Shown: positions 410 to 62,443 of the stretch, in pieces
Position numbering within the stretch: the stretch's first letter is position 1
Layout of the letters: every line of letters begins with the position of its first letter
Made by a program: the position numbers and the translations under genes
The notes under the pieces: generated by a model
What the model was told of the DNA's origin: nothing
Database searches by the model: none
The model's input: only the letters and a program-made list of their open reading frames with translations
NCBI RefSeq assembly: GCF_003702705.1
Contig: NZ_QZMN01000005.1
Coordinates: 124,001-188,000, forward strand
DNA length: 64,000 nucleotides
Direction of reading: 5' to 3'
Origin: Ornithinimicrobium cerasi
GTDB taxonomy: Bacteria; Actinomycetota; Actinomycetes; Actinomycetales; Dermatophilaceae

Positions 410-1615
410 TCAGGGGAGGGCGGCGCCCTTCATCAGCTGCGAGCTGTAGACGTTGCTGATCCGCACCCCGTCGAGCCACCGGGTCAGCCGCCGGGCCTCG
501 ACCTCCAGCGCCGCCCGGGCCGCGGCGCCGGGGTCGGCACCGGGCGCGAGGACGACGCGCACCGCCCCGTCCTCGTCCTGCACCCACGCCCCGACGAGCC
601 GGCCGCCCCACCAGGCGGTCGTACCGGCGTTGCCGTTCGTGTCGAAGAGGTAGGTCGTGAGCGCCGGGTCGAGGTAGAACTCCCGCCCCCGCCACCCCAT
701 CGTCGTCGGGTCGAGCGTCGGCAGCAGGGCCGCCCACGGCTCGACGTCCGCCTCGGGGTCGACGTCGTCCGGCAGCAGCCACCCGGTCGACCCGCCGTCG
801 AGGCCGACCGGCACCGCACCGACGGCCGACAGCGACGCCCTCGCCGCCGTCTTCGTCGACCCGAGCCACCACTGGACGTCCTCCACCGTGCCCGGGCCGA
901 AGGTCCGCAGCCAGCGGCGGACCAGCTCGGCATACCCCTCCTCGGCGGGGAGCGGCTCCACCGCGCCGCCCAGCCAGTCGGTCGTGAGCGTCCAGGTCGG
1001 GCGGGAGAGGCGCCAGTGACCGGTGTTGGGCCCCCGGACGACCAGTCCCTGCGCACCGAGCCAGGTCAGCACGCGCGGGGCGAGCGGCGCGGTGCCGCCG
1101 TAGCTCTTGCCGAGGCCGTAGGTCATGGTGCCCGCCAGCTCCGGCAGGTCCTCCCGCAGCTGGCGCGCGGGGAGCGGCCCCCGCTCCGCCAGGTGCCGCA
1201 GCACGGCCCCACCGGCGGCCTCGAGCCAGGCCGCGCCGTCGTCGGCCACCGCCTGGGCCTCGACGTCGCGCGCGATCACCCTCCGCTGCTCGGCCGCCAC
1301 GCGCGCCGACGCGCTGCCGAGCGCGGCGGGCAGCAGGTCGCGGGGGAAGACGAAGAGCGTGCGGCGCATGGCCAGCTGCTTGACCACCGAGCGCTCCTCG
1401 TAGAGCGCCCGGTCGACGTCGGCCGGCCCCGTCCCCTCGGTGCGCGCGTGCACGGCGAGGTGCACGGTCGCGGCCTCGGTCGCGTGCAGGACGGTCATCG
1501 CCCGCGTCGCGGCGACGGTGTCCTGCACCCGGTGGGAGGGGTGGACCGCGTGCCGCCGTGCCAGCCGGGCGCGGCGCTCGCGGTCGTCCACGTGGCGGAC
1601 GGGGGCGCCGCTCAC
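410..1615 (-). CDS. Winged-helix DNA-binding domain protein (HTH_42/YcaQ-like)
   Basis: A 401-residue protein that reads end to end like the actinobacterial winged helix DNA-binding domain-containing family (HTH_42). Family marks are the N-terminal HPSHRVQDTVAATRAM block, the FVFPRDLLPAALG segment near residue 95, the WLGSTKTAARASL region, and the C-terminal ending RISNVYSSQLMKGAALP. Relatives of the YcaQ/AlkX type are linked to DNA repair, including interstrand crosslink unhooking, but this actinobacterial branch is mostly uncharacterised, so a repair role is only inferred. It starts at GTG (1613-1615), which overlaps the TGA of the upstream methyltransferase-DinB gene by 4 bases (GTGA). The two are therefore probably co-translated. 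Confidence 0.8.
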   Translation of the reverse strand: MSGAPVRHVDDRERRARLARRHAVHPSHRVQDTVAATRAMTVLHATEAATVHLAVHARTEGTGPADVDRALYEERSVVKQLAMRRTLFVFPRDLLPAALGSASARVAAEQRRVIARDVEAQAVADDGAAWLEAAGGAVLRHLAERGPLPARQLREDLPELAGTMTYGLGKSYGGTAPLAPRVLTWLGAQGLVVRGPNTGHWRLSRPTWTLTTDWLGGAVEPLPAEEGYAELVRRWLRTFGPGTVEDVQWWLGSTKTAARASLSAVGAVPVGLDGGSTGWLLPDDVDPEADVEPWAALLPTLDPTTMGWRGREFYLDPALTTYLFDTNGNAGTTAWWGGRLVGAWVQDEDGAVRVVLAPGADPGAAARAALEVEARRLTRWLDGVRISNVYSSQLMKGAALP

Positions 1616-2832
1616 CGCTGCGCGGCCTGCCGGGCAGCCTCCTCCACGCGCTCCCGGTGGGCGGACCAGCCCTCGTCGTCCAGGTCGGGGAGGTTGCTCA
1701 CCCCCTCGCGCATGCCGGTCCGGCCGTCCAGGAGCTCCCGGAGGATGTCGGCGTGCCCGGCGTGCCGGGCCGTCTCGGTCGCGAGGTGCACGAGGATCAG
1801 CCCGAGCGTGACGTCAGCCCGGTCCGGCGCCCAGTGCGGGACCCGGCCGCGGGAGTCCAGGTCGAGCGCCGAGACGGTGGCGTCGCCGTGCGCCCAGGCG
1901 CGTCGGTAGAGCGCCACGACCTCCTCGCGCGACTCCTCCTCGGTCGCCCACATGTCGGCGTTGGCCTCCGCCCCGTCGTCGTACCAGGGGAGGGGGATCC
2001 CGCTGGGCCGCCCGAACGTGTCGCCGAGATAGCCCAGCTCCACCGCGGCCAGGTGCTTGACCAGGCCCAGCAGGTTGGTGCCGGTCGGGGTCAGGGGACG
2101 GCGCGCGTCATACTCCGAAAGACCCTCGAGCTTCCACACGAGCGCTGTCCGCGCGACCTGCAGGTAGCGCAGCAGCCAGCCCTTGAGGTCGTCGGGCGCG
2201 GGCACCGGCGGCGGGCCCTTGCGCGCCGTCGCCAGGAAGACCGGGTAGGCCGTGCCCTCCTTCTCGACCTGGGTGCAGTCCTCGACACCCACCTCGCCGA
2301 GCCCGGCCCGCCCCATCGCCGCCGCCAGCTCGGCGCGGTCGAAGCCGGGGTGGCCGTCGAAGTCGTGGGTGTGCGCGTGGAAGGAGCCGTCCTCGGTGTC
2401 CAGGTCGGCAACCGCCACGACGCCGCCCTCCTCGGTCAGCGCGGCCAGGCCCCGCAGCACCGCGTCCAGGTCGTGCACGTGGTGGAGCACCATCGAGGAG
2501 ACGACGAGGTCGAAGCGCTCCGGCGGCGGCTCCTGGTGCTCGAGGTCGAGGTCCCAGACCCGGGAGCCCGCCGGCAGGTCCCCCGACGCGATCTTGCCGT
2601 CCGTCACCTCGCGCATCCCCGAGGAGTTGTCGGCCAGGGTCGCGGCGATCCCGGGGAGGAGGTCGGCCAGCGCCTGGGTGACCAGACCCGTGCCGGCGCC
2701 GTACTCGAGCAGGCTCGTCACCGGCCGACCCCCGAGCGACCCCACGACCGCCCGCGCCACCTCCTGCGCCCGCGCCACCTTGTCGGGGTCGTCCCACGTC
2801 CCGGCGTGCTCGTCGAAGTGCTCGGTGCCCAT
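1612..2832 (-). CDS. Class I methyltransferase fused to a DinB/DUF664 domain
   Basis: A 406-residue two-domain protein. Residues 1 to about 205 form a class I SAM-dependent methyltransferase: SAM-binding LEYGAGTGLV near residue 42, the DLVVSSMVLHHVHDL post-motif near residue 103, and a GFDRAEL helix. Residues about 215-390 form a DinB-like four-helix domain (DUF664 type), whose histidines KHLAAVE and HLATETARHAGHADI fit the three-histidine metal site of DinB and mycothiol-transferase-like proteins. I chose the ATG at 2830-2832 because MGTEHFDEHAGTWD is the usual start of this methyltransferase type; the open frame upstream is low-complexity. The fusion is continuous with no sign of a frameshift. 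It is translationally coupled to the next gene by GTGA. Confidence 0.82.
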   Translation of the reverse strand: MGTEHFDEHAGTWDDPDKVARAQEVARAVVGSLGGRPVTSLLEYGAGTGLVTQALADLLPGIAATLADNSSGMREVTDGKIASGDLPAGSRVWDLDLEHQEPPPERFDLVVSSMVLHHVHDLDAVLRGLAALTEEGGVVAVADLDTEDGSFHAHTHDFDGHPGFDRAELAAAMGRAGLGEVGVEDCTQVEKEGTAYPVFLATARKGPPPVPAPDDLKGWLLRYLQVARTALVWKLEGLSEYDARRPLTPTGTNLLGLVKHLAAVELGYLGDTFGRPSGIPLPWYDDGAEANADMWATEEESREEVVALYRRAWAHGDATVSALDLDSRGRVPHWAPDRADVTLGLILVHLATETARHAGHADILRELLDGRTGMREGVSNLPDLDDEGWSAHRERVEEAARQAAQR

Positions 2833-2926: not shown

Positions 2927-4123
2927 ATGCACGTCGTGGTGGTCGGAGCCGGTCTCGCCGGTGGCCGGGCGGTCGAGGAGCTGCGCGCGGCCGGGCACAC
3001 GGGCGAGGTGACCCTCCTCGGGGCCGAACCCCACAGCCCCTACGAGCGTCCGCCTCTGTCCAAGGACGTCCTGCTCGGCCGGGCCGAGGTCGCGTCCGCC
3101 ACCCTCTTCGACGACGCCTGGTATGCCGAGGCTCAGGTCGACCTGCGCGTCGCCACCGAGGCGGTCGGGGTGGACCTCGCCCGAGGGGTGGTCGAGCTCG
3201 TCGACGGGAGCAGGCTCGCCTACGACCGGTTGCTGCTGGCGACCGGGTGCGAGCCCGTGCGCCTGGCGGTCGCCGAGGCCGGGCGAGCGTCCGGGTCGCT
3301 GCCGGTGCCGGTGACCCACCTGCGCACGGTCGAGGACGCCATGGCGATCCGGTCGCTGTGGTCGGGCGGGGCGGACGGTCGTCGGCTGCTGGTCGTCGGC
3401 GGTGGGTGGATCGGTCTGGAGGTCGCGGCCGCAGCCCGTGAGAGCGGTATGGAGGTCACCCTCGTGCACCGGGGGGCCCAGCCGCTGGGCCGGGTGCTCG
3501 GTCCCGAGATGGGGCAGCTGTTCGCGGCGGTGCACCGTGAGCACGGGGTCGACCTGCGTCTCGGCGCGACGCTGGAGGAGCTCACCGCTGGTGCCGCCGG
3601 TCGCGCCGCCGCCCGGCTCAGCGACGGCAGCAGCGTCGACGTCGACGCCGTCGTGGTCGGTGTCGGGGTCCGGCCACGGACGCGGCTGGCTGAGGCCGCC
3701 GGCCTGGCGACCGACGACGGCGTGCTGGTCGACGCCACCCTGCGCACCGGTGACCCGCACGTCTGGGCGGCCGGGGACCTCGCCTGCCACGAACACCCCG
3801 TCCTCCGCCGGCGGGTCCGGGTCGACCACTGGGACGCGGCCCAGGAGCAGGGCCGCCACGCCGCCCGGGCCATGCTCGGCGACCCCGCTCCCTACACCCG
3901 GCTGCCGTACTTCTACACCGACCAGTACGACCTCGGCATGGAGTACGTCGGCTTCGTCGGCCGGGAGGGCTACGACGACGTCGTCGTCGAGGGGGACGTC
4001 CCGGGCCGGGTCCTCACCGCCCGCTACGTCACCGAGGGCACCGTCGTGGCCGCCCTGCAGATCAACGACTGGGACGCCATGGACGGTCTGCGGGAGACGG
4101 TGGGCCGACCGCTGCGCCGCTGA
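2927..4123 (+). CDS. FAD-dependent oxidoreductase, ferredoxin-reductase type
   Basis: A 398-residue flavoprotein of the pyridine-nucleotide disulfide oxidoreductase/ferredoxin reductase class. An FAD-binding VVVGAGLAGG loop opens the protein (residues 3-12), ERPPLSKDVL follows (about residues 39-48), an NAD(P)H-binding LVVGGGWIGLE loop sits near residue 155, and the second FAD motif WAAGDLACHEHP is near residue 280. The C-terminal reductase domain (LPYFYTDQYDLGMEYVG) is that of rubredoxin/ferredoxin reductases feeding electrons to oxygenases or P450s. The ATG at 2927 is chosen for a clean GAGGAG ribosome site at 2915-2920. No partner ferredoxin or oxygenase lies nearby. The ArsR gene follows 56 bases downstream behind its own operator, so a link to arsenic handling is uncertain. 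Confidence 0.85.
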   Translation: MHVVVVGAGLAGGRAVEELRAAGHTGEVTLLGAEPHSPYERPPLSKDVLLGRAEVASATLFDDAWYAEAQVDLRVATEAVGVDLARGVVELVDGSRLAYDRLLLATGCEPVRLAVAEAGRASGSLPVPVTHLRTVEDAMAIRSLWSGGADGRRLLVVGGGWIGLEVAAAARESGMEVTLVHRGAQPLGRVLGPEMGQLFAAVHREHGVDLRLGATLEELTAGAAGRAAARLSDGSSVDVDAVVVGVGVRPRTRLAEAAGLATDDGVLVDATLRTGDPHVWAAGDLACHEHPVLRRRVRVDHWDAAQEQGRHAARAMLGDPAPYTRLPYFYTDQYDLGMEYVGFVGREGYDDVVVEGDVPGRVLTARYVTEGTVVAALQINDWDAMDGLRETVGRPLRR

Positions 4124-5793: not shown

Positions 5794-5897
5794 ACCTCAG
5801 GCAGGCGCGACCGGGACGCCGAGGGACTCGAGCAGGGCCGTGACCCGGGCGTGCCTCTCGGGTCGGCGGGTGAGGTCGGGGTATGGCGTGGGGCAGG

Positions 5898-7001
5898 TCA
5901 GGCGCGGGCGTGCGGGAAGCGGTCGCGCAGGGCGAGGGAGACGTAGACGAGCCCGACGAGAACCGGCACCTCGATGAGGGGTCCGACCACGCCGGCGAGC
6001 GCCTGGCCTGACGTCACCCCGAAGGTCGCGATGGCGACCGCGATGGCGAGCTCGAAGTTGTTGCCGGCCGCGGTGAACGCGAGCGTGGTGGTGCGCTCGT
6101 ACGACATACCCAGACCCCTGCCGAGCAGGTAGCCCGCGCCCCACATGAGCGCGAAGTAGACGAGCAACGGCAGGGCGATCCGGGCGACGTCCAGCGGGCG
6201 CGAGGTGATCTGCTCGCCCTGGAGCGCGAAGAGCAGCACGATCGTGAAGAGCAGGCCGTAGAGCGCCCACGGCCCCACGCGCGGCAGGAAGGTCCCCTCG
6301 TACCAGTCCCGACCCCTGGCCCGCTCGCCCCAGACGCGGGAGAGCCAGCCGGCCACCAGCGGGATGCCGAGGAAGATGAGCACCGACCGTGCGATCTGCC
6401 ACGGGCTCACGTCGAGCGCGGCCTGGTCCAGGCCGAGCCAGCCGGGCAGCACCGAGAGGTAGAACCACCCGAGGCCGGCGAACGCGACGACCTGGAAGAT
6501 CGAGTTGAGGGCGACGAGCACCGCGGCCGCCTCCCGGTCGCCGCAGGCGAGGTCGTTCCAGATGATGACCATCGCGATGCAGCGGGCCAGGCCCACGATG
6601 ATCAGCCCGGTGCGGTACTCCGGCAGGTCGGCGAGGAAGATCCACGCCAGCGCGAACATCAGCGCCGGACCGACGACCCAGTTCAGGACCAGCGAGCTGA
6701 CCAGCATCCGCCGGTCGGCGACCACGGTGTCCAACCGGTCGTAGCGGACCTTGGCCAGGACGGGGTACATCATCACCAGCAGGCCGAGCGCGATCGGGAG
6801 CGAGACCCCGTCGATCTCGACCGCGCCGAGCGCCGCGCCCAGCCCGGGCACCAGCCTGCCCAGAAGGAGCCCGGCCACCATCGCCACGCCGATCCACAGC
6901 GGGAGGTAGCGGTCGGTGGTGGACAGGTGCACGGGCGGGCGGGAGGACCCGACGCCGGGCACCCCAGCCGTCGTGGTGCCCCGGCTCCTCGCTGGTTCCA
7001 T
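5898..7001 (-). CDS. acr3: ACR3-family arsenite efflux permease
   Basis: A 367-residue membrane carrier of the bile acid/arsenite (BART) superfamily, ACR3 type, with about ten membrane segments. The diagnostic fourth-segment region ARCIAMVIIWNDLACGD with its essential cysteine is present, followed by ALNSIFQVVAF, and the second conserved asparagine region is FTAAGNNFELAIAVAIA. It exports arsenite or antimonite from the cytoplasm by proton antiport. I chose the ATG at 6999-7001; the extra upstream frame is a shadow. The gene is divergent from arsA with a 55-base shared control region (7002-7056), an arrangement that suggests joint metal control. The 104-base stretch 5794-5897 between it and the second arsR holds no gene I can support. 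Confidence 0.92.
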   Translation of the reverse strand: MEPARSRGTTTAGVPGVGSSRPPVHLSTTDRYLPLWIGVAMVAGLLLGRLVPGLGAALGAVEIDGVSLPIALGLLVMMYPVLAKVRYDRLDTVVADRRMLVSSLVLNWVVGPALMFALAWIFLADLPEYRTGLIIVGLARCIAMVIIWNDLACGDREAAAVLVALNSIFQVVAFAGLGWFYLSVLPGWLGLDQAALDVSPWQIARSVLIFLGIPLVAGWLSRVWGERARGRDWYEGTFLPRVGPWALYGLLFTIVLLFALQGEQITSRPLDVARIALPLLVYFALMWGAGYLLGRGLGMSYERTTTLAFTAAGNNFELAIAVAIATFGVTSGQALAGVVGPLIEVPVLVGLVYVSLALRDRFPHARA

Positions 7002-7056: not shown

Positions 7057-8829
7057 ATGGTCCCCTCAGCCCCCACCTTCCTGGTCGACACCCCGCGCTT
7101 CCTCTTCCTCACCGGCAAGGGCGGCGTCGGCAAGACCTCGCTCGCCTGCGCCGCCGCGCTGCGGCTCGCCGAGCAGGGCCGGACGGTGCTGCTGACCAGC
7201 ACCGACCCCGCCTCCAACGTCGGCCAGGTGTTCGGGGTGACGGTCGGCGACCGGGTCACTCCCGTCCCCGGCGTCCCGGGGCTGGACGCCCTGGAGATCG
7301 ACCCGCAGCAGGCGGCGGACGCCTACCGCGAGCGGGTCGTCGCCCCCGCCCGGGGGTTCCTGCCCGAGGATGAGGTCGCCGCGCTGACCGAGCAGCTGTC
7401 CGGCTCGTGCACCACCGAGGTGGCGGCGTTCACCGAGTTCGCGCACCTCCTCGCCGGGGGCCCGTCGAGCGCGGCCTACGACCACGTGGTCTTCGACACG
7501 GCGCCGACCGGGCACACCGTCCGGCGGCTCCAGCTGCCGGGGGAGTGGACCCAGTTCCTCGCCCGCGGCCGGGGTGACACGTCCTGCCTGGGCCCGATGT
7601 CCGGCCTCGACGAGCAGCGCGCCGTCTACGCGGCGGCCGTCGACGCGCTCGCCGACCCGTCCCGCACCCGGCTGGTCCTCGTGTCCCGCGCGCAGCGATC
7701 CGCCCTCGCCGAGGTGGCCCGCACGGCCGTCGAGCTCGGTGAGCTGGGGATGACGCGGCCGCACCTGGTCCTCAACGCCGTCCTGCCCGACACCGGCAGC
7801 GACGACCCGCTCGCCGCCGCGGTCCGGCGGCGGGAGGAGGAGGCGGTCTCCGGTATGCCGCGCGCGCTCGCCGCGCTGCCGCGCACCGTCGTCCCGCTGC
7901 GGCCGGTCGACGCCGTCGGGGTGGCGGCGCTGCGCGCCCTGCTCGCGGAGGGTTCCGTCGCGGTCCCCGACCCCGGCCCGACCCCGGCGCCCGTCGCCCC
8001 CCTCGGCGCCCTCGTCGAGGAGTTGGACGCCTCGGGGGACCACGGCCTGGTGCTGTGCATGGGCAAGGGCGGGGTCGGCAAGACGACGGTCGCCGCGGCC
8101 GTCGCCGTCGAGCTCGCCCGGCGCGGGCACGCGGTCCACCTCACGACGACCGACCCGGCCGCCCACCTCGCGGCCACGCTCGAGGGCGAGCTCCCCGGGC
8201 TGACGGTGAGCCGGATCGACCCCGAGGCGGCGCTCGCGGCATACCGGGAACGGATCCTGCGCGTCCGCGCGAGGGAGCTCGACCCCGACGGCCTGGCTGC
8301 GCTGGAGGAGGACCTGCGCTCCCCGTGCCTCGCCGAGATCGCGGTGTTCCAGGAGTTCAGCCACGCCGTGTCCCAGGCGCGCCGGCAGTGGGTGGTCGTG
8401 GACACCGCGCCGACGGGTCACACCCTGCTGCTCATGGACGCGACCGGCTCCTTCCACCGGCAGATGACCCGCCAGCTGGGGGAGGGGGCCCGGTTCACCA
8501 CGCCGCTGATGCGCCTGCAGGACCCGGAGGGGACCCGGGTGCTGCTGGTGACGCTCGCCGAGACCACGCCGGTCCTCGAGGCCCTCGAGCTGCGCGACGA
8601 CCTGCAGCGGGCCGGCATCGAGCCGTGGGCCTGGGTGGTCAACCAGAGCCTGGCCGCCGCCCGACCGGGCGACCCGCTGCTCGCCGCCCGGGCCCGGGCC
8701 GAGGCGCTCCCCCTGGCGACCGTCGCCGGGGCCGCCGCCCGGCTGGCCGTCGTGCCGGCCCTCGCGCGGGAGCCGGTCGGCGTCCCCGCCCTGCTGGAGC
8801 TCACGGCGACGGGGGTCGCGGCCGGGTAG
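7057..8829 (+). CDS. arsA: ArsA-type arsenite-transporting ATPase, two fused domains
   Basis: A 590-residue duplicated ATPase. It has two deviant P-loops GKGGVGKT (residues 20-27 and 337-344), two signal-transduction motifs DTAPTGHT (near residues 148 and 450), and three cysteines matching the metalloid site of ArsA: C118 (SGSCTTE), C177 (TSCLGP) and C424 (SPCLAE). ArsA normally binds the inner face of an arsenite permease and converts it to an ATP-driven pump; here the only candidate partner is the divergent ACR3. No ArsD chaperone or ArsC arsenate reductase is encoded nearby. I prefer the ATG at 7057 for its strong GGAGGAG site at 7041-7047; an in-frame ATG at 7027 lacks one. Confidence 0.9.
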   Translation: MVPSAPTFLVDTPRFLFLTGKGGVGKTSLACAAALRLAEQGRTVLLTSTDPASNVGQVFGVTVGDRVTPVPGVPGLDALEIDPQQAADAYRERVVAPARGFLPEDEVAALTEQLSGSCTTEVAAFTEFAHLLAGGPSSAAYDHVVFDTAPTGHTVRRLQLPGEWTQFLARGRGDTSCLGPMSGLDEQRAVYAAAVDALADPSRTRLVLVSRAQRSALAEVARTAVELGELGMTRPHLVLNAVLPDTGSDDPLAAAVRRREEEAVSGMPRALAALPRTVVPLRPVDAVGVAALRALLAEGSVAVPDPGPTPAPVAPLGALVEELDASGDHGLVLCMGKGGVGKTTVAAAVAVELARRGHAVHLTTTDPAAHLAATLEGELPGLTVSRIDPEAALAAYRERILRVRARELDPDGLAALEEDLRSPCLAEIAVFQEFSHAVSQARRQWVVVDTAPTGHTLLLMDATGSFHRQMTRQLGEGARFTTPLMRLQDPEGTRVLLVTLAETTPVLEALELRDDLQRAGIEPWAWVVNQSLAAARPGDPLLAARARAEALPLATVAGAAARLAVVPALAREPVGVPALLELTATGVAAG

Positions 8830-11636: not shown

Positions 11637-12824
11637 ATGAAGCCGGGTGGGGACGGCCCGGGGGAGCTGACGACCGCCCAGGTCGCGGACTACCTCGGCG
11701 TCAAGGTGCAGACCGTCTACGCCTACGTCAGCCGCGGCGTCCTCACGCCCCGTCGCCGCGACCCGGCGGTGGGCAGCCTCTTCGCGCTGGCCGACGTCAA
11801 GGGCCTGGTGGGTGGCGGCCGCTCCGGCCGTCGACGGAGGCCCGGCACCAGCGAGGACGTGCGCACCGCGGTGACCGAGGTCCGCCCCGGACGCCTCTCC
11901 TACCGCGGCCGAGACGTCCGCGACCTGGCCGGACGGGTGCCCTTCGAGGCGGTCCGCGCCCTGCTCACGGGCCTGCCGCAGGAGCAGGACGACCCTGCGG
12001 GAGGTCTGCCGTCGGGCCCGGACCGTGCCGCCCTCGCCCGGGTGCTCGGGGCCCTCCCGGAGGGGGCCACGCCGATGGACCGCTTCAAGCACGCGGTGCT
12101 GGTCGCCGGGGCGACCGACGTGGGGCGGCGGGACCGGACGCCCGCGGCGTTCGCCCGGGCCGGCGCCCGCGCCGTCTCCCTCATGGCGCTCTCCCTCCCC
12201 GGGGCGCGGCCGGCGCCCACCCTCGGCGAGGCGCTCGCCATACCCCTCGCGCCGTGCCCGCCCCCGACCCTCGACGCCGCGCTGGTGCTCCTGGCCGACC
12301 ACGACCTCGCCGTGTCCACGACGGCGGTCCGGGTCGCGGTGTCCTCGGGGGCCGACCCCTACGGCGCGCTCCTCGCCGGCCTCGCCGCGGCCGACAGCCC
12401 GCTGCACATGACCGCGTCGTCGCTGGCGCTCGACTGGCTCCGCTCGGCCCTTGCCGCCCCGCAGGACGCCCTCGACGCGGCGCTCACCCGCGGCCGCCCG
12501 CCCGGCTTCGGGCACGTCGTCTACACCGAGCAGGACCCTCGCGCGCAGGTCCTGCTCGACCTGCTCGGGCCGCACCTGCCCCCGGGCGAGCTGGCGGCGC
12601 TGCGGCGGATCGGGTCCGAGCTGCTGGAGCGGCGGGGCTGGGTGCTCAACGTCGACGTCGGCCTGGCGCTGCTCGCCCACGTCCACGGGCTGCCCCGCTG
12701 GGCCGGGACCGCGGTCTTCGCCTGCGCCCGCACCGCCGGCTGGACGGCGCACGCGCTCGAGGAGCTGGCGGAGCCGGGGATGCGGTTCCGGCTGCGCGGG
12801 GTCTACAGCGGTCCCCGGTCCTGA
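11637..12824 (+). CDS. Citrate synthase-like protein with N-terminal helix-turn-helix
   Basis: A 395-residue protein. Residues 10-65 form a MerR/excisionase-like helix-turn-helix (LTTAQVADYLGVKVQTVYAY, then SRGVLTPRRRD wing), followed by a citrate synthase fold. The catalytic set appears retained: His in LADHDLAVSTTA (about 220), His in GFGHVVYTEQDPRAQ (about 287), and Asp in LNVDVGLALLAHV (about 340). However, the usual LHGGA loop is LHMTA, so activity may be altered. The N-terminal HTH suggests DNA binding, perhaps a metabolite-sensing autoregulator or an enzyme with a regulatory role. It starts at ATG 11637, one base after the operator, and is divergent from the other citrate synthase gene. 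Confidence 0.83.
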   Translation: MKPGGDGPGELTTAQVADYLGVKVQTVYAYVSRGVLTPRRRDPAVGSLFALADVKGLVGGGRSGRRRRPGTSEDVRTAVTEVRPGRLSYRGRDVRDLAGRVPFEAVRALLTGLPQEQDDPAGGLPSGPDRAALARVLGALPEGATPMDRFKHAVLVAGATDVGRRDRTPAAFARAGARAVSLMALSLPGARPAPTLGEALAIPLAPCPPPTLDAALVLLADHDLAVSTTAVRVAVSSGADPYGALLAGLAAADSPLHMTASSLALDWLRSALAAPQDALDAALTRGRPPGFGHVVYTEQDPRAQVLLDLLGPHLPPGELAALRRIGSELLERRGWVLNVDVGLALLAHVHGLPRWAGTAVFACARTAGWTAHALEELAEPGMRFRLRGVYSGPRS

Positions 12825-43476: not shown

Positions 43477-43555
43477 CGGGTCAGCCTATCGATCGGGGGT
43501 GCAGGTGGTCTGCAGGGCGGCGCAGGTATGACGTGCAGGTGCGTCGCGAGGGGGT

Positions 43556-46676: not shown

Positions 46677-46722
46677 CGGGAGGAGCGGCATACCCCCCGG
46701 CCGGTCGCTGTCCCCGGCGGGT

Positions 46723-49245: not shown

Positions 49246-49770
49246 TCAGTCCTCCGGGGGGTCGAGGGTCAGGGTGCGGCCCGCCACGACGAGCTGCGCG
49301 AGAGCGGCATACCCGGCGACCACGGCGTTGACGCGGCCGAGCCGGTCGCGGTAGTCCCGCGAGACGGGGTGCATCGGGACGATGCCGGAGCCGACCTCGT
49401 TGGTCACGACCACGACCTCCCCCGGGTATGCCGTCGCCCACCGCCCGAGCGCGTGCGCCCGGTCGAGGGTGCCGGCCTCGTCGACGCCGCGGCCCATGAG
49501 GTTGGAGACCCACAGCGAGAGGCAGTCGACGAGGATCGTCTGTCCCGGGGCCAGCCCGGCGAGCGCCTCGACGAGGTCGGTCGGCGCCTCGACGGTGCTC
49601 CAGCGCGAGGGCCGCTCCGCGCGGTGCCGGGTGATCCGGTCGGCCATCTCGGCGTCTCCCGCCTCGCCCGTCGCCACGAAGACGACAGGGGCACCGGTGC
49701 GCCCGGCGCGCCGGACCGCCACCGCCGACTTGCCGCTGCGGGCGCCGCCGGTGAGGAAGGTGAGAGGCAC
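49246..49770 (-). CDS. cobU: Adenosylcobinamide kinase/guanylyltransferase
   Basis: A 174-residue CobU/CobP, which phosphorylates adenosylcobinamide and transfers GMP to it. The P-loop is TGGARSGKSAVA (residues 7-18), followed by VFVATGEAGDAEMADRI (about 30-46) and RITRHRAERPSRWSTVEAP (guanylylated His in RHRAERP), the catalytic LVDCLSLWVSNLM (about 80-92) and VVTNEVGSGIVP (about 121-132). Start GTG 49768-49770. It is followed at four bases by cobT, so the kinase and the lower-ligand enzyme form one operon. Confidence 0.95.
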   Translation of the reverse strand: MPLTFLTGGARSGKSAVAVRRAGRTGAPVVFVATGEAGDAEMADRITRHRAERPSRWSTVEAPTDLVEALAGLAPGQTILVDCLSLWVSNLMGRGVDEAGTLDRAHALGRWATAYPGEVVVVTNEVGSGIVPMHPVSRDYRDRLGRVNAVVAGYAALAQLVVAGRTLTLDPPED

Positions 49771-50576: not shown

Positions 50577-51615
50577 TCAGCGCCAGCCGAGGGCGGGCGC
50601 GACGTCCCTGACGAGTGAGCGCAGCAGGTGGGCGTTGTAGTCGACACCCAGCTGGTTCGGCACCGTCAGCAGCAGGGTGTCGGCCTCCGCGACCGCCTCG
50701 TCCTCGGCCAGCTGGCGTGCGAGCTCGTCGGGCTCCGCGGCGTAGGTCTTCCCGAACGTCGCGCGCCCGCCCTCGAGCATCCCGACCTGGTCCGTGCTGC
50801 GGCGCTCGAGCCCGAAAGTAGGCGTGGTCCTGCGCGGTGACGAGGGGGAAGATGCTCCGGCTGACCGAGACCCGGGGCTCCCAGTCGTGACCGGCCTCCG
50901 CCCAGGCCGCCCGGAAACGGCGGATCTGCTCCGCCTGCAGGGCGTGGAACGGCAGGCCGGCGTCCTCGGTCAGGAGGGTCGAGCTCATGAGGTTCAGACC
51001 CTGCCGGCCGGCCCACTCGGCGGTGTCGCGCGACCCGGCGCCCCACCAGATGCGGCGCCGCAGGCCCTCGGAGTGCGGCTCGATCCGCAGCAGCCCCGGC
51101 GGGTTGGGGAACATCGGGCGCGGGCTCGGCTCGGCGAAGCCCTCGCCCGAGAGCACCTCCAGGAACCGCGCGGTATGCCGTCGCGCCAGGTCCGCGGAGG
51201 ACTCACCCTACCGCGGCTCGTGACCGAAGTGACGGAACCCGTCGACCACCTGCTCGGGCGACCCGCGGCTGATGCCCAGCTGCAGCCGGCCGCCGGAGAT
51301 GAGGTCCGCCGCGCCGGCGTCCTCGGCCATGTACAGGGGGTTCTCGTAACGCATGTCGATCACGCCCGTGCCGATCTCGATCCGGCTGGTCCGGGCTCCC
51401 ACGGCGGCCAGCAGCGGGAACGGGGAGGCCAGCTGCCGGGCGAAGTGGTGCACGCGGTAGTAGGCGCCGTCGGCACCCACCTCCTCGGCCGCCTCGGCCA
51501 GCTCGATCGACTGGATCAGGACGTCGGAGGCCGATTGCGTCGCCGACTGCGGGTGGGGGGTCCAGTGCCCGAAGGACAGGAAGCCGATGGTCTTGCGGGT
51601 CGGGTTCGGCTGCAT
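50577..51615 (-). pseudogene. LLM-class flavin-dependent monooxygenase, broken by a nonsense codon and a frameshift
   Basis: Read continuously, this is a full-length (about 345-residue) luciferase-like flavin-dependent oxidoreductase (CE1758-type). The first part runs from ATG 51615 (KTIGFLSFGHWTPHPQSA, FPLLAAVGARTSRIEIGTGV) to GFRHFGHEPR, then a TAG at 51208-51210. The same frame continues directly with GESSADLARRHTARFLEVL, so a CAG-to-TAG change is likely. Homology then continues through IWWGAGSRDTAEWAG until 50816-50818, where one extra base in an A/T triplet shifts the frame; the rest (VGMLEGGRATFGKTYAAEPD to NAHLLRSLVRDVAPALGWR) is in another frame ending at 50577. Two lesions argue for a real pseudogene rather than one read error. 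Confidence 0.85.
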
Positions 51616-51686: not shown

Positions 51687-53087
51687 ATGCCCGCCCTGCT
51701 CTGGCTGCGCCGCGACCTGCGCGTCGCCGACCACCCCGCCCTGCTCGCCGCCCGGAAGGCCGCCGACGGTGACCTCGCCGTCTGCTTCGTCGTGGACCCG
51801 GTGCTCTGGGAGGGTGGCGGGTCGGTGCGCCGGGCCTGGCTGGCGGCCTCCGTGCGCGCGGTCGCCGACAAGCTGGGTGGGTGTCTGGTGCTGCGCGCGG
51901 GCGACCCCGCCGAGGTGCTGCCCGCCCTCGTGTCGGAGCTCGGCGCGACGTCCGTCCACGTCACCCGGGAGACCACGCCCACCGGGGCCCGGCGCGACCG
52001 TCGGGTGCGTCGGCTGCTCGAGGAGGGGGGTGGTGGCCGCGCGGGAGCACCGGCGGGCGGCGCGTCCGTCGAGTGGGTGGAGACCGGCACGCCCTACGCC
52101 GTCGGGCCGGGCCTGGTGCGCAACGGGTCCGGTGACCCCTACCAGGTCTTCACGCCGTTCTCACGGGCCTGGCGGGAGCACGGCTGGCCGGAGCCGGCGG
52201 CGACGCCGCGCAGCCTCGACCTCGTCGAGCTGCCCACCGAGGCGCGGGCGGAGAAGCTGCTGGACGACGCGCTGGCGGACGACGACCTGCCGACGATGCC
52301 GGACGCCGGTGAGGACGCCGCGCTGCGGAGGTGGCGCGACTTCCTCGACGACGGGTTGTCCGACTACGCCTCGGCCCGGGACCGGCCCGACCTCGACGGG
52401 ACGAGCCGGCTCTCGGCATACCTCAAGGTCGGTGCGGTCCACCCCCGGACCCTGCTGGCCGACCTCGCGGGGCGGCGCGGGAAGGGGGCGGAGACCTACG
52501 CGACGGAGCTGGCCTGGCGCGAGTTCTACGCCGACGTGCTGCACCACCACCCGCGCAGCGCCTGGCGCGACCTGCGGGACGGCCTCGCGGGGCTGCGCTA
52601 CGAGGAGCCGGAGGACGCCGTCGAGGCGTGGCGTACGGGGCGGACGGGCTACCCCGTCGTGGACGCCGGAATGCGGCAGCTGCTGGCCGTCGGGTGGATG
52701 CACAACAGGTTGCGGATGATCACGGCGAGCTTTCTCACCAAGGACCTCCACGTGTGGTGGCCGGTCGGTGCGCGCCACTTCCTCGACCACCTCGTCGACG
52801 GCGACCTCGCGTCCAACAACCACGGCTGGCAGTGGGTCGCGGGGACGGGGACCGACGCGGCGCCGTACTTCCGTGTCTTCAACCCGGTGACGCAGGGCGA
52901 GAAGTTCGACCCCGACGGGGACTACGTCCGGCGGTGGGTCCCCGAGCTGGCCCACCTGCCGGGCAAGGCCGCCCACCAGCCGTGGAACCACCCGGACGGC
53001 TACGCCCACGGCTACCCGCAGCGCATCGTGGACCACGCCGAGGAGCGCCGCGAGGCGCTGGCGCGGTACGAGGCCGCCCGCCGCTGA
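51687..53087 (+). CDS. phrB: Deoxyribodipyrimidine photolyase (CPD photolyase)
   Basis: A 466-residue photolyase, which splits cyclobutane pyrimidine dimers with blue light using FADH-. The N-terminal antenna domain is MPALLWLRRDLRVADHPAL. The FAD domain shows LDGTSRLSAYLKVGAVHPRT (about residues 232-251), ELAWREFYADVLHHHP (about 272-287), DAGMRQLLAVGWMHNRLRM (about 328-346), TKDLHVWWPVG and NNHGWQWVAGTGTDAAPYF (about 374-392), matching class I CPD photolyases. Start ATG 51687. The gene sits between the luciferase-like remnant and the end of the cobalamin operon, divergent from the former and convergent with the latter. Confidence 0.93.
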   Translation: MPALLWLRRDLRVADHPALLAARKAADGDLAVCFVVDPVLWEGGGSVRRAWLAASVRAVADKLGGCLVLRAGDPAEVLPALVSELGATSVHVTRETTPTGARRDRRVRRLLEEGGGGRAGAPAGGASVEWVETGTPYAVGPGLVRNGSGDPYQVFTPFSRAWREHGWPEPAATPRSLDLVELPTEARAEKLLDDALADDDLPTMPDAGEDAALRRWRDFLDDGLSDYASARDRPDLDGTSRLSAYLKVGAVHPRTLLADLAGRRGKGAETYATELAWREFYADVLHHHPRSAWRDLRDGLAGLRYEEPEDAVEAWRTGRTGYPVVDAGMRQLLAVGWMHNRLRMITASFLTKDLHVWWPVGARHFLDHLVDGDLASNNHGWQWVAGTGTDAAPYFRVFNPVTQGEKFDPDGDYVRRWVPELAHLPGKAAHQPWNHPDGYAHGYPQRIVDHAEERREALARYEAARR

Positions 53088-53219: not shown

Positions 53220-54276
53220 TTGGGCGGCTGACCCCGAGGGCGACGGCGCCGGCGACCAGGCTGAGCTCGACCCGGTCCACGAGCCGCCGCGCACGGGTGA
53301 TCGTCGTCGCGTCAGGGCGTGGGCCCTCGCCGAGCCGCGGCCGGTCCTCGGTGATCTCGCCGTAGCGCAACGGCCCGCCCAGCTCCACCCCCAGCGCCGC
53401 CGCGACCGCGCTCTCGGCGACGCCCGCGTTGGGCGAGGGGTGGGCGGGGGCGTCCCGACGGACGACGCGGAGCACGTCGAGGACGCGGACCCGGCCGAGG
53501 ACGCGCGCGACGTGGGCCACACGCGCTCTCCGAGCGGCACCCTGGTCCGACGGCAGCCTCGGCGCCAGGAGCGCGACGATCCCGGCCGTCACCCGTGCCG
53601 GCACCCACGCCATCGCGTCGTCCAGGCGCGCGGACGCCCAGCCGAACCGCGCGTAGCGGGTCGAGCGGTGCCCCACCATCGCGTCCATCGTGTTCACCGC
53701 CCGGTGGGCCAGCACCCCGGGCGCCCCCGCCACCACCGCCCAGAGCGCCGGGGCGACCACCGCGTCGACGGTGTTCTCGGCGAGCGACTCCACCACCGCG
53801 GCCGCCACCCCGCTCGCGTCCAGGCCGCTCGGGTCCCGCCCCACCAGCCACGGCAGCCGTTCACGCGCGCCCTCGAGGTCGCCGGCCCGCAGCAGCTCCT
53901 CGATGTCGCGCGAGGTATGCCGCAGCAGCCGCCCCGCGCAGGCCACGGCCACCGCGACGGCGACGGCCGGCGCCACGACTCCGTCGCCCCGCGCCGCACC
54001 GGCCGGACCCCGAGCCGCGCCGGTCACGCCCCGCACCAGACCGGCCGCCCCCCGCACGAGAACGTCCACCACCAGGCCGGATCCGACGCCCAGCCCGACC
54101 CCCACGACCGTGTACCCCGCCCCCGCGAGCCGCCGGTCGGCATACAGGAGGCCCTCGACGTGCCCCATCGCGGTGCCGAACCACGCCACCGGGTGCCAGG
54201 CCGCGGGCGGCTCGCCCAGCGCCCGGTCCAGGAGCAGCCCGGCGGCGACGCCGAGGGCACGGCCGCGCAGGCTCAC
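53188..54276 (-). CDS. cobD: Adenosylcobinamide-phosphate synthase (CobD/CbiB)
   Basis: A 362-residue membrane enzyme that attaches the aminopropanol arm to adenosylcobyric acid. Marks: LDRALGEPPAAWHPVAWFG (about residues 16-34), RDPSGLDASGVAAAVVESLAENTVDAVVAP (split at AAAV; about 146-175), NTMDAMVGHRSTRYARFGWASARLDD (split at RYA) and HPSPNAGVAESAVAAALGVELGG (split at AVA). Start GTG 54274-54276 overlaps the cbiZ stop (GTGA). It is the last gene of the riboswitch-led operon. An alanine/arginine-rich insert near residue 85-100 is longer than usual. Confidence 0.93.
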   Translation of the reverse strand: MSLRGRALGVAAGLLLDRALGEPPAAWHPVAWFGTAMGHVEGLLYADRRLAGAGYTVVGVGLGVGSGLVVDVLVRGAAGLVRGVTGAARGPAGAARGDGVVAPAVAVAVAVACAGRLLRHTSRDIEELLRAGDLEGARERLPWLVGRDPSGLDASGVAAAVVESLAENTVDAVVAPALWAVVAGAPGVLAHRAVNTMDAMVGHRSTRYARFGWASARLDDAMAWVPARVTAGIVALLAPRLPSDQGAARRARVAHVARVLGRVRVLDVLRVVRRDAPAHPSPNAGVAESAVAAALGVELGGPLRYGEITEDRPRLGEGPRPDATTITRARRLVDRVELSLVAGAVALGVSRPTHRREATLTG

Positions 54277-54986: not shown

Positions 54987-56590
54987 CAGCCCGGCTCCCG
55001 GCCGACGGGCGTCGCCGTGCGCGCCAGCGCGAGCAGAGCAGGTATGTCGAGGCTCGCCCCGACCCAGTCCGCCAGGTGATCGAGATGGTGGTCCAGGGCG
55101 TCCGCCCACGGGACCGGTGACGGGGCGAAGGCCCGACCCCGGGCCGCTGCGATGTCAGCCATCATGGTGTGGCGCAACGTATCCGAGTCGAACAGGCCGT
55201 GCACCGAGGTTCCTCGCACCCGTCCATCGTCGCGCAGGCAGCCCTCGGGCCGGACGTCGCCCTCACCCTCGTCCACCTCGCACCACGGCACGCCGGAGCT
55301 GAGGCCGCCGGTCACGACCGGGCGGGTCCGGCCCCACCTGATCTCGTAGCCCCGCACCTCGGCACCGGCACCGGCCCCCGACCGGTCGGTCAGGGTGCCG
55401 CGCACCCGGCGGACCACCTTCGGCGCCTCGAACGTCGTCGCCACCGGGAGCAGCCCCAGCCCGGCCACGGTGCCGACGCCGGACTCCAGCTCGTCCGCGA
55501 CGCTGACGCCGAGCATCTGGTAGCCGGCGCACAGGCCCAGCACCTGCGGGCCGTCGGGGTCGTCGACCAGCGCGGCGATCGCCCGGTCCAGGCCGCGGGT
55601 CCGCAGCCACCGCAGGTCCGCCACCGTCGCGCGGCTGCCCGGCAGGACCACCAGGTCCGCGTCCCCCACGTCGGCCGGCCCCGTCGCCCACCGGACGTCG
55701 ACGTCCGGCTCCAGGACGAGCGGGTCGAGGTCGGAGGGGTTGGCGAGGTGGGGCAGGCGGACGACGCGGACGCGGACCGGCCGACCCGTCGGTGTGTCCG
55801 CGGGGGCGGGGGAGGGGAGGGTGGTGGACAGGTCCAGGGAGTCCTCCACGCCCAGCATCAGGTGGTCGCCCAGGTGCGGCAGCACGCCCAGGACCGGCAC
55901 CCCGGTCCGCCGCTCCAGGTCGCGCAGGCCGGGCTCGAGCAGCGACACCTCACCCCGGAAGGAGTTGACGACGAAGCCGCGCAGGCACGCCCGCAGCCGC
56001 TCGGGAAGGAGCGCCCAGGTGCCGTACGCGGCGGCGAACGCCCCACCCCTCTCGATGTCGACGACGAGCACCGCCGGGATCCCGGCCGCGGCGGCGAGCG
56101 GGAGGTTGACCAGGTCGCGGTCCAGCAGGTTGATCTCCGCGGCCCCGCCAGCGCCCTCGAGCACCACGACCTCGTGCTCGGACCGCAGCCCCTGGAGCGC
56201 CCCCAGGACGAGCGGGCGCAACCGGGCCGCGCGCTCGCCATACCCCACCGCGTCGGCGACGCCGACCTCCTCGCCGAGCACCACGAGGTGGGAGCTGCGC
56301 GCCCCGGACGGCTTGAGCAGCACCGGGCCCATCCGCCGGTCGGTCTCGACCCCGGCCGCGAGCGCCTGCATCGCCTGCGCGCGGCCGATCTCGCCGTCGT
56401 CGGGCGTCACCGCGCCGTGGTTGGACATGTTCTGCGCCTTGAACGGCGCGACGTCCACCCCCCGGCGCGCGAACGCCCGGCAGAGCGCGCTGGTCAGCGT
56501 CGACTTGCCGGCGCCGCTCGCCGTCCCCACGACCATGAGCGCTCCCGCCGCGGCGGCGCCCGGACCGGGGCCCTCAGTAGTCGATGCCAC
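54983..56590 (-). CDS. cobQ: Cobyric acid synthase
   Basis: A 535-residue glutamine amidotransferase (CobQ/CbiP) that amidates four carboxylates of adenosylcobyrinic diamide. The ATP-binding dethiobiotin-synthetase-like domain has VVGTASGAGKSTLTSALCRA (about residues 20-39), FKAQNMSNHGAVT, LLKPSGARSSHLVVLG and VLEGAGGAAEINLLDRDLVN. The triad-type glutaminase domain has LGLCAGYQMLG (nucleophile Cys, about 353-363) and TSVHGLFDSD (His). Start GTG 56588-56590 overlaps the end of cobO by 17 bases; an internal ATG at 56532-56534 is less likely. Full length for the family. Confidence 0.94.
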   Translation of the reverse strand: MASTTEGPGPGAAAAGALMVVGTASGAGKSTLTSALCRAFARRGVDVAPFKAQNMSNHGAVTPDDGEIGRAQAMQALAAGVETDRRMGPVLLKPSGARSSHLVVLGEEVGVADAVGYGERAARLRPLVLGALQGLRSEHEVVVLEGAGGAAEINLLDRDLVNLPLAAAAGIPAVLVVDIERGGAFAAAYGTWALLPERLRACLRGFVVNSFRGEVSLLEPGLRDLERRTGVPVLGVLPHLGDHLMLGVEDSLDLSTTLPSPAPADTPTGRPVRVRVVRLPHLANPSDLDPLVLEPDVDVRWATGPADVGDADLVVLPGSRATVADLRWLRTRGLDRAIAALVDDPDGPQVLGLCAGYQMLGVSVADELESGVGTVAGLGLLPVATTFEAPKVVRRVRGTLTDRSGAGAGAEVRGYEIRWGRTRPVVTGGLSSGVPWCEVDEGEGDVRPEGCLRDDGRVRGTSVHGLFDSDTLRHTMMADIAAARGRAFAPSPVPWADALDHHLDHLADWVGASLDIPALLALARTATPVGREPGW

Positions 56591-57149: not shown

Positions 57150-58018
57150 GAGATCTCCTCCATGCGTCGGGACTCCAGGTCGATGGCGGTATGCCGTCCG
57201 CCCGTCGGTCGGGTCGGCCGAGGCGCGGGCACCACGACCAGGTGCCCGTCCAGCTCGACGACCCGGATCGGGTGGCCGTAGACGCGGGACAGGAGGTCAG
57301 GGTCGAGAACCTCCTCCGGGACGCCGAGGGCCTGCGGGCTGCCGTGCTCCAGGAGCAGGAGCCGGTCGGCATACCTGGCGGCCATCCCCAGGTCGTGCAT
57401 GGCGGCGATCACCGTGAGCCCGTCCTGGTGGCGCAGCTCGTCGACCATCTCCAGGACCTCCACGGAGTGGCCGACGTCCAGGGCGCTGGTCGGCTCGTCG
57501 AGGAGAAGGACCGGGGCCTGCTGGGTCAACGCGCGGGCGATGACCACCCGTTGCGCCTCGCCGCCAGAGAGGCTGCGCACCTCCCGGTCGGCGAACGAGG
57601 CCAGCCCCAGCCGGCGCAGCACGCTGGCGACGATCTGGCGGTCCTGCGTCGACTCCGCCTGCAGCCAGCCCAGGTGGGCGGTCCGGCCCAGCAGGACGTA
57701 CTCCACGACGGTCATCCCCGGCGGCAGCTCCGGGGCCTGGGGCATGAACGACAGGTCGGTCGGGGTGGGCACCAGCCCGTCACCGAGCTCCACGGTGCCC
57801 GTGCGCGGGACCAGGCCGAGCAGGCTGCGCAGGTAGGTCGACTTGCCCGAGCCGTTGGGTCCGATCAGGCCCAGCCACTCCCCGGCGCGCAGTTCCAGGT
57901 CGACGCCGCGGACGACCTCGTTGCCCTGGAAGGCGACCCGGACGTCGTGGGTGCGGAGGGCGTGCGTGGGACGCAGCGGGGTGGGGGCACCAGCCCCGAC
58001 GGGTGGCTGAGGGGTCAC
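57146..58018 (-). CDS. btuD: ABC transporter ATPase for corrinoid (B12) uptake
   Basis: A 290-residue ATPase of the FepC/BtuD class. Walker A is GPNGSGKST (about residues 53-61), the Q-loop SFMPQAP, the signature LSGGEAQRVVIARAL (about 149-163), Walker B VLLLDEPTSALD (about 169-180) and the H-loop MHDL (about 207). A C-terminal extension of about 35 residues (PAPRPTRPTGGRHTAIDLE) follows. Family members serve siderophore, heme or B12 importers; the riboswitch upstream and cob genes downstream make corrinoid the likely cargo. Start GTG 58016-58018 overlaps the permease stop. Confidence 0.9.
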   Translation of the reverse strand: MTPQPPVGAGAPTPLRPTHALRTHDVRVAFQGNEVVRGVDLELRAGEWLGLIGPNGSGKSTYLRSLLGLVPRTGTVELGDGLVPTPTDLSFMPQAPELPPGMTVVEYVLLGRTAHLGWLQAESTQDRQIVASVLRRLGLASFADREVRSLSGGEAQRVVIARALTQQAPVLLLDEPTSALDVGHSVEVLEMVDELRHQDGLTVIAAMHDLGMAARYADRLLLLEHGSPQALGVPEEVLDPDLLSRVYGHPIRVVELDGHLVVVPAPRPTRPTGGRHTAIDLESRRMEEIS

Positions 58019-61451: not shown

Positions 61452-62443
61452 CCCTGTGCCCGCCCGAGGCGACCCAGGAGCGCGTCGCGCCGGCGCGCGT
61501 TGCCCGGCAGGTCGACATACCGCTGACCGGCGCTCGCCAGCAGGTCGTCGTCGAGGCGCCGCACGGCGCCGGGCGGGTACTTGTAGCCCATCGCGGCCGT
61601 CACCGCGGCGCTGTCGACGTGGACCAGCAGTGCGCTCAGCTCCTCGAGGGAGCCGATCCCCAGCTGGAGCAGCAGCTCGGCGATCCACTCGTAGTGCTCC
61701 GTCCGCGACCAGCCGGCGGAGGCGTAGCGGCCGGCGAGGAAGGTGGCCAGCTCCTGCGGGCTGATCCGCGGGTCGGCGTCGTCGTGGGTCACCGCCCCGC
61801 GGGACAGGCCCGCCTGCAAACGGTCGCGGATGGCCGTGAACTCGGAGTCGGCCAGCTCGAGGAGGCCGGCGGCCAGGGTGAAGCGGCGGTCCATGTCCGG
61901 CACCTGCTCCGGCGGGATGGTGCCCTTGTAGCGGATGTCGTGCTCGAACTCGGCCCAGGCGTGCTGCAGCACCGTCCTCAGCTGCACGGACACGCAGCGC
62001 GTCGCCTCGTAGGGCGGGAGCGCGCCGTCCGGCCCGACCGGGTCGGCGGAGAGGAGCAGGTGGCGGCTGGCGTAGCCCCACCGTCCCGCGCTGGCCGTCT
62101 CCTCGCCGAGGTCGCGGTCCTCGAGCACGGTGTAGTTCTCGTGCAGGAGGTCGGCCACCGCCCGCACGTCCTCGCGGACGTAGGTGATGATCCGGGCCCC
62201 GACGAGGTCGGTGATCTGCCGCAGCGGGTCGATCGCCGCCCCCTGCGCCGCGGCCACGGCGCGCTGGGTCTTCGCGGCGAAGGAGGTCACGCTCTTGGTC
62301 CGGCCGGAGACGGTGAGGTAGTTGATGCCGGCGTCGTCGATGAGGGAGGTCAGGGTGGTCACCGCGTCCTGCGTCACCTGCTCGAGGGTGGGCTGGAGGG
62401 CGGTGTATGCCGTGACCGCTCGGTCGACCTCGGGATGGCCCAT
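61448..62443 (-). CDS. Small alarmone synthetase (RelA/SpoT synthetase domain)
   Basis: A 331-residue single-synthetase protein without HD, TGS or ACT domains, predicted to make (p)ppGpp from ATP and GDP/GTP. Motifs: SVTSFAAKTQRA (substrate loop, about residues 51-62), LRQITDLVGARIITYV (about 74-89, with the DLxGxR-type core), and VSVQLRTVLQHAWAEFEHDIRYKG (split at AWA; about 151-174), holding the catalytic Glu/Gln-x-R-T region. The helical C-terminal third (ELLLQLGIGSLEELSALL) is specific to this subfamily. Start ATG 62441-62443. Translational coupling to cobC is unexpected. Confidence 0.85.
   Translation of the reverse strand: MGHPEVDRAVTAYTALQPTLEQVTQDAVTTLTSLIDDAGINYLTVSGRTKSVTSFAAKTQRAVAAAQGAAIDPLRQITDLVGARIITYVREDVRAVADLLHENYTVLEDRDLGEETASAGRWGYASRHLLLSADPVGPDGALPPYEATRCVSVQLRTVLQHAWAEFEHDIRYKGTIPPEQVPDMDRRFTLAAGLLELADSEFTAIRDRLQAGLSRGAVTHDDADPRISPQELATFLAGRYASAGWSRTEHYEWIAELLLQLGIGSLEELSALLVHVDSAAVTAAMGYKYPPGAVRRLDDDLLASAGQRYVDLPGNARRRDALLGRLGRAQG

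Follow-up and report, generated by a model that had tools for sequence, protein, structure and literature searches.

Why does one octamer, GGTATGCC/GGCATACC, recur so often in a 64,000-nucleotide stretch of the Ornithinimicrobium cerasi genome (contig NZ_QZMN01000005.1 of assembly GCF_003702705.1, positions 124,001 to 188,000; hereafter the window)? The first-pass annotation of this DNA had picked out about 30 exact copies by eye; we counted 29, 14 on the plus strand and 15 on the minus strand, against a mean of 0.59 and a maximum of 3 after dinucleotide shuffling. Its coordinates were exact to a base, apart from a copy placed at 52425 that really lies at 52415. The motif heads the ranking of the commonest 8-mers and 9-mers of the window (CGGCATAC, 34 versus 1.2 expected; CGGCATACC, 28 versus 0.5), and GGTATGNC is found 45 times versus 2.4 expected. 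The octamer as proposed is therefore real and belongs at the top of the 8-mers, but its fuller form is GTATGNCG (GTATG-N-CG), of which GGTATGNC is only a partial view and which occurs 50 times in the window. In a 464-kb sample of the same genome, which includes the window, G follows GGTATGCC in 96% of the 149 copies with readable flanks, the seventh base is free (A, G and T are each enriched), and C in first place stays at the background level (7 versus 6.7). In O. cerasi the fuller word is thus D-GTATG-N-CG-H: the preceding base is A, G or T, and the following one is seldom G. Genome-wide (G000; 3.83 Mb in 87 contigs), GGTATGCC occurs 578 + 549 = 1127 times and its reversed word 6 + 12 = 18 times; the corresponding counts for GTATGNCG are 1081 + 1038 = 2119 and 97 + 84 = 181.

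The simplest explanation would be that the word is a by-product of codon usage or base composition. We called 398 genes in the 464 kb with our own codon-model caller, not a curated annotation, and found 226 copies of GTATGNCG inside them. A codon-preserving shuffle giving similar counts had been named beforehand as what would overturn the motif; shuffling synonymous codons within each gene left 28.8 ± 5.0 copies (maximum 40 in 100 shuffles). The reversed word remained at expectation (14 versus 14.4), and GTATGNCG is denser between genes (1.08 per kb) than within them (0.54 per kb), so that an origin in codon usage or composition is next to impossible. Codons suspected of being recruited by the motif are indeed concentrated in it: GTATGNCG holds 0.59% of all codons, and it contains 114 of 170 TAT (67%), 25 of 45 ATA (56%), 41 of 591 GCA and 17 of 501 AGG codons. 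Among positions where the protein sequence permits the word, 23% of 624 carry it in sense and 13% of 639 in antisense. The sense to antisense ratio of 144:82 within genes had suggested a role at the RNA level, which we rejected because coding constraint accounts for the ratio (19.8:10.3 in the shuffles). The roughly eightfold excess over the codon-preserving null, the doubled density between genes and the coding-allowed strand ratio together support the selection at the DNA level proposed in the first-pass annotation, or else drive at that level. In the gaps between tandem genes the word runs against transcription 20 times and along it 8 times.

Beyond the iteration itself, the new finding is that the copies are spaced in a strand-specific manner. 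The first-pass annotation held both orientations to be equally common, which is true of the totals in window and genome; such totals hide a local rule by which copies on the same strand avoid each other. Across the 464 kb of G000, the orientation of successive GTATGNCG sites alternates 189 times and repeats 90 times (p 3e-9), and copies of one orientation are spaced more regularly than chance would have it (coefficient of variation 0.73, mean 3.2 kb). Pairs in the same orientation 10-500 bp apart are fewer than expected in four genomes (G000, 14 versus 41.9; G007, 9 versus 38.6; G034, 38 versus 55.9; G035, 37 versus 55.9), and pairs in opposite orientation at these distances number 55, 39, 59 and 61, respectively. 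When the four are pooled, 98 same-strand and 214 opposite-strand pairs lie within 500 bp, with 192 expected for each. On the same strand, observed pairs amount to 0.51 of expectation within 500 bp, 0.81 at 500-1000 bp and 1.02 at greater distances; the corresponding values for opposite strands are 1.11, 1.12 and 1.00.

This avoidance persists under other nulls. With orientation labels permuted, same-strand pairs within 600 bp, a limit fixed after the binned counts of the four genomes had been seen, number 18 versus 40.7 in G000 and 14 versus 31.2 in G007 (0 of 2000 permutations as low in each), 43 versus 53.9 in G034 (38 of 2000) and 48 versus 60.8 in G035 (16 of 2000). A codon-aware null, in which copies are placed at random among amino-acid-permissible positions, predicts 34.0 ± 7.0 same-strand pairs within 600 bp where 10 are seen (0 of 1000), and 31.8 ± 6.9 opposite-strand pairs where 39 are seen. 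In a blind scan of enriched words in G000 and G007, only GTATGNCG and words overlapping it strongly avoid the same strand; the others mostly show no self-avoidance, with median ratios of about 1.2 to 1.4, and GACGAGG, used as a control, shows same-strand clustering. Sites whose free position is A, G or T are scarce near C-form sites of the same strand (9 versus 21.8, with 29 on opposite strands, in G000), and five one-letter variants outside the motif show no such repulsion (50 versus 47.6, summed). Among 17 other members of the genus, pooled 20-kb loci give an alternation of 103 versus 50, with pairs at 300-1000 bp depleted; in G035 alternation is marginal (86 versus 61, p 0.05). Copies on one strand thus seem able to stand in for one another and to be unaffected by those on the other strand. 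Since the short-range avoidance is confined to copies of like orientation, the word acts strand by strand and the site has a direction.

A directional word might serve chromosome segregation or replication, in the manner of the FtsK orienting polar sequences (KOPS) or architecture imparting sequences (AIMS), which we take to be non-palindromic octamers whose orientation follows the replichore. GTATGNCG resembles these in being short, non-palindromic and very frequent, but it lacks replichore polarity: each of ten 40-kb samples of the single-contig genome G007 is mixed (130 versus 122), and of twenty 20-kb stretches of G000, 18 contain both orientations; contig C1 of this genome beyond 154 kb also proved mixed on reading the sequence. 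The absence of replichore bias in G007 argues against segregation or replication roles; the first-pass annotation had dismissed a KOPS-like polar motif, rightly in our view, and we consider such a signal very improbable.

Saturation per strand over about 500-1000 bp points instead to something that moves along the DNA and reads it in one direction, as RecBCD reads Chi. The reading that we favour, with about an even chance of being right, makes GTATGNCG a directional signal for recombination, akin to Chi, with the helicase-nuclease AdnAB as its probable reader. After a double-strand break, such an enzyme would unwind and trim the DNA from each end until it came upon a correctly oriented copy, where trimming would give way to the production of a 3' tail for RecA. 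An enzyme travelling in a given direction would read one orientation only; both strands would therefore have to offer a copy at intervals of a few kilobases, and a further copy nearby in the same orientation would be redundant. The likeliest reader would be AdnAB, the RecBCD counterpart of actinobacteria. The first-pass annotation had spoken of a binding, uptake or modification site; of such DNA-level signals, a plain uptake tag accounts for the data less well than a directional, Chi-type one.

Like the Chi sequences of RecBCD and AddAB (GCTGGTGG in E. coli, GCTGGCGC in Pseudomonas), GTATGNCG is a short, non-palindromic, overrepresented word; it averages one copy per 3.2 kb per strand, and the avoidance on one strand with independence between strands is a genomic proxy for reading in one orientation. 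Pseudomonas Chi occurs once per 3 kb, also without strand bias, according to the available part of PMC5959072. The leading-strand bias of E. coli Chi has no parallel in the mixed samples of G007, and from the same partial source such a bias is not universal for Chi. GTATGNCG differs in having a free position, in that an enzyme's response to it is so far only presumed, and in that most of its carriers lack RecC.

The last point requires the distribution of the word. Genomes were sampled from a wider family, which we take to be the Dermatophilaceae of GTDB. The NCBI taxonomy places Ornithinimicrobium in the Ornithinimicrobiaceae. A LeuS encoded in G000 shares 82% identity with its counterpart in Ornithinimicrobium sp. 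CNJ-824, and G023, from the same genus, has one contig that is identical to a contig of Ornithinicoccus halotolerans. Within the genus, GGTATGCC is at least 5-fold over control in all 32 genomes, with 38 to 2180 copies. Across 396 genomes of the order, GTATGNCG exceeds 800 copies in 22 of the 34 family genomes, the other 12 having at most 175, and none of the 362 genomes outside the family combines more than 30 copies with an enrichment above about 2.5-fold (read by eye). Across 396 genomes of the phylum, again by eye, three of the four family genomes are 4- to 12-fold enriched, and enrichment elsewhere is at most about two-fold, except in G497 (17 versus 5). The 69 family genomes represent 53 genera; 36 genomes (30 genera) are motif-rich, defined by a limit of our choosing as at least 1000 copies, and reach up to 6035 copies with ratios to control of 2.3 to 18; the 33 motif-poor genomes (23 genera) have at most 607 copies and ratios of 0.85 to 5.1, the highest resting on 46 copies. 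No genus straddles the two groups. In the sampled genomes, strong enrichment of GTATGNCG is therefore confined to one actinobacterial family. The exact 14-base parS core GTTTCACGTGAAAC is present in only 9 of the 32 genomes of the genus.

RecC is found in 9 of the 36 motif-rich and 17 of the 33 motif-poor genomes (p 0.03 by Fisher's test, without correction for descent), and RecBCD was rejected as a general reader, RecC being missing from 27 of the 36 motif-rich genomes. Both AdnAB-like frames lie adjacent to each other in all 20 loci read (12 motif-rich, 8 motif-poor), making AdnAB the only enzyme of this kind found in all loci examined. The AdnAB proteins of O. cerasi match the solved M. smegmatis chains (6PPJ/6PPR/6PPU) with E values of 7e-150 and 1e-205, and by these structures the upstream frame encodes the shorter subunit. 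PF12705, a nuclease domain not specific to AdnAB, occurs in all 69 family genomes. Replacement of the AdnAB genes was considered as a source of the patchy distribution of the word and set aside: the trees of the two subunits, which comprise 20 loci, are unrooted and contain some weak branches, are broadly alike, with motif-rich genomes spread over them and no signal of horizontal transfer.

The same distribution could also result from a DNA-uptake sequence like those of Neisseriaceae and Pasteurellaceae, whereby a surface receptor would prefer word-bearing DNA and uptake-biased recombination would spread the word through the genome. The density and overrepresentation of GTATGNCG, its lack of strand bias, its restriction to a family and the flanking letters that vary between genomes all agree with this. 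With the DNA uptake sequences (DUS) of Neisseria and the uptake signal sequences (USS) of Haemophilus, the word, frequent and non-palindromic, has in common its copy number, its occurrence in both orientations, flanks that vary between genomes and its absence from one provirus. A provirus resident in the O. cerasi genome contains no copy in 21.6 kb, where 13.1 are expected at the host rate (p 2e-6); its lack of the word fits an uptake sequence and a Chi-like signal alike. USS have been described as evenly spaced (Karlin, cited in PMC1939737). A match to the channel protein ComEC occurs in 67 of the 69 family genomes, 7 of them over the curated cut-off, in motif-rich and motif-poor genomes alike; the matches count in favour of an uptake sequence, their presence in motif-poor genomes against it. 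The match in G451 is too short to count as ComEC. Loss of ComEC had been entertained as an explanation for the motif-poor G023, but the match there runs off an 8.5-kb contig and so provides no evidence.

What counts most against an uptake sequence is the spacing. Haemophilus takes up DNA independently of site orientation, as given in the available text of PMC1939737, and to an orientation-blind receptor any neighbour would be redundant; however, neighbours in opposite orientation are undepleted both in the pooled genomes and under the codon-aware null, and avoidance between GTATGNCG copies is limited to those that share a strand. Inverted pairs within 50 bp are also rare (3 in 464 kb of G000). 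PilT, the retraction ATPase of the type IV pilus, scored over the cut-off in 1 of 69 genomes, and in one more was split over two contigs, both genomes being motif-rich, with at most 25 candidates scored per genome. The two families that PMC7811141 names, in the part available, as bearing uptake sequences are Gram-negative, and carriers of GTATGNCG lie outside both. A direction-sensitive uptake process could still yield the spacing pattern, and we regard an uptake sequence as unlikely overall, though as the main rival of the Chi-like reading.

Several observations touch the provirus and its surroundings. The first protein query for relatives matched the resident provirus only, and the single protein searched against a phage collection had no match there; a second protein query retrieved, besides the provirus, one weak relative, L239, which has 5 copies of the word in 20.3 kb. 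The provirus record IMGVR_UViG_2833441259_000001 (37.9 kb) ends at position 8185 of L047, adjoining a comEC without its N-terminal part; positions 1-9140 of L047 correspond to about 79.0-88.1 kb of G000 contig C66. Similarity of this comEC begins at L047 position 9165, at the residue (326 in the numbering of G011) where the comEC of G002 also starts, and comEC may contain a phage attachment site. Outside the window, positions 6381-21209 of G000 contig C59 form a 14.8-kb stretch without any GTATGNCG and with a G+C content of 69%, versus 73% in a 400-kb sample of G000; this stretch may be acquired DNA.

In G102, of genus g31, which lacks GTATGNCG, CGAAGGGG is the most enriched 8-mer (266 versus 37 in 300 kb) and, of all the 8-mers tested, the one with the strongest avoidance on the same strand: same-strand pairs number 43 versus 69.5 within 600 bp (82 on opposite strands, p 4e-4) and 39 versus 57.5 within 500 bp (70, p 0.006). 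The additional data for G102 and G172 came after the 600-bp limit had been fixed; CGAAGGGG itself was first picked from a 100-kb part of the G102 sample, which makes the spacing test not fully independent. The pattern is weaker than, but similar to, that of GTATGNCG. Genome-wide, CGAAGGGG occurs 3180 times versus 119 for the reversed word in G102, and 2201 versus 142 in G214 of genus g35, which also lacks GTATGNCG; it is less than 3-fold enriched in the other 67 of the 69 family genomes. Two genera lacking GTATGNCG thus bear an unrelated word, the spacing evidence for which comes from G102, one of the two.

A different word in g31 and g35 would also fit if GTATGNCG were the site of a strand-specific DNA-binding or DNA-modifying protein engaged in neither repair nor uptake, such as a nucleoid organiser, a one-strand methyltransferase or a nicking enzyme. 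A non-palindromic word with one free position would suit such a protein, as would enrichment throughout the genus and in some genera of the family only. A highly iterated octamer of one lineage is also known from cyanobacteria, namely GCGATCGC, which we take to be HIP1 (highly iterated palindrome 1); HIP1, however, is palindromic and has no orientation, whereas the consensus of GTATGNCG is not a palindrome and its orientation matters. For an iterated word that holds a methyltransferase site there is a precedent, according to the accessible part of PMC1939737, and this precedent is again the cyanobacterial palindrome. Saturation per strand over about 500-1000 bp is moreover hard to explain without movement along one strand, and we consider a site of this kind unlikely.

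Other candidate words were less informative. Those of G032 (GGATGCCG), G172 (CGTACGNC), G238, G436 and G056 (GGATGCC) are enriched without clear same-strand avoidance and were rejected as dialects of the signal, though retained as leads, and G033 and G047 have no outstanding enriched word. In G032 (L027-L031), GGATGCCG is the top 8-mer (57 versus 9), lies one letter from GTATGCCG and shows no avoidance. In 300 kb of G172, CGTACGNC, the core of which is one letter off GTATGNC, is four-fold enriched (418 versus 103), with weak avoidance in both orientations. G056, from another family of the order (L231-L233), possibly carries another iterated word: 60 kb contain 28 copies of GGATGCCTC versus 0.9 and 71 of GGATGCC versus 12.

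A number of points weigh against a Chi-like signal read by AdnAB. As to spacing, alternation in G007 is not significant (130 versus 112, p 0.27), pairs closer than 300 bp are undepleted in the pooled 20-kb loci of the genus (11 versus 13), and two rare near-miss words in G007 (12 and 8 copies) likewise have 0 same-strand neighbours where 3.7 and 2.5 are expected. CGAAGGGG in G102 is the only alternative word found with a similar spacing signature, and no convincing avoiding word emerged in G032, G033, G238, G436 or G172. As to the reader, AdnAB occurs in motif-poor genomes too (8 of the 20 loci) and hence does not discriminate, and the trees of both its subunits show no link to the word. We found no literature report of AdnAB responding to a sequence, and a 2026 paper, in the part available, calls sequence control of AdnAB and the choice of its stopping point unclear (PMC13309787). 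The enrichment of E. coli Chi, with an observed-to-expected ratio of 2.3 in one analysis (PMC3784561, seen in part), is below that found here; a simpler model gave 1008 versus 151 (available text of PMC1939737).

Within the window, sites were located by GTATGNCG. On the plus strand they lie at 3121..3128, 5881..5888, 7853..7860, 12950..12957, 15399..15406, 17137..17144, 19828..19835, 24519..24526, 25431..25438, 28361..28368, 28619..28626, 32401..32408, 33731..33738, 36576..36583, 37218..37225, 39958..39965, 43526..43533, 45821..45828, 49426..49433, 51173..51180, 53915..53922, 55042..55049, 57189..57196 and 62405..62412. Those on the minus strand are at 928..935, 2106..2113, 6102..6109, 8237..8244, 12236..12243, 13129..13136, 14630..14637, 19340..19347, 19565..19572, 23813..23820, 25190..25197, 28186..28193, 33030..33037, 33282..33289, 35701..35708, 38406..38413, 41505..41512, 42694..42701, 43911..43918, 46686..46693, 49305..49312, 52414..52421, 54138..54145, 56236..56243, 57367..57374 and 61513..61520. 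Sites between genes, as delimited by our own caller, are those starting at 5881, 43526, 45821 and 51173 on the plus strand and at 33282, 35701, 38406 and 46686 on the minus strand; the four copies previously reported as non-coding (35702, 38407, 45820 and 46687) are all among them. The sole exact GGTATGCC copy outside GTATGNCG, lacking the following G, is at 32019..32026 on the plus strand. Metabolic genes of the window include those for urate oxidase (15154-16080) and the molybdopterin-binding subunit of xanthine dehydrogenase (24526-27159), as well as cobT (48144-49241).

In the open-licence literature, a few queries naming genera of the family turned up no account of GTATGNCG, nor of Chi or uptake words in the family, and our literature search found no report of uptake sequences in actinobacteria. 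Should GTATGNCG prove to be an uptake sequence after all, it would to our knowledge be the first outside two Gram-negative families. Under either reading, spacing by strand offers an inexpensive means of telling directional iterated words from non-directional ones. AdnAB is a break-resecting enzyme of mycobacteria and other actinobacteria, and if GTATGNCG is truly its signal, where AdnAB stops would become testable through an exact sequence, its orientation and natural pairs of genomes in which the word is switched. It is plausible, although short of probable, that GTATGNCG, carried by most of the family's sampled genera, and the unrelated CGAAGGGG, carried by two, are both AdnAB recombination signals, in which case strand-specific mutual avoidance of copies could serve to detect such signals in sequence data alone, and the specificity of the reader would have switched within a single family.

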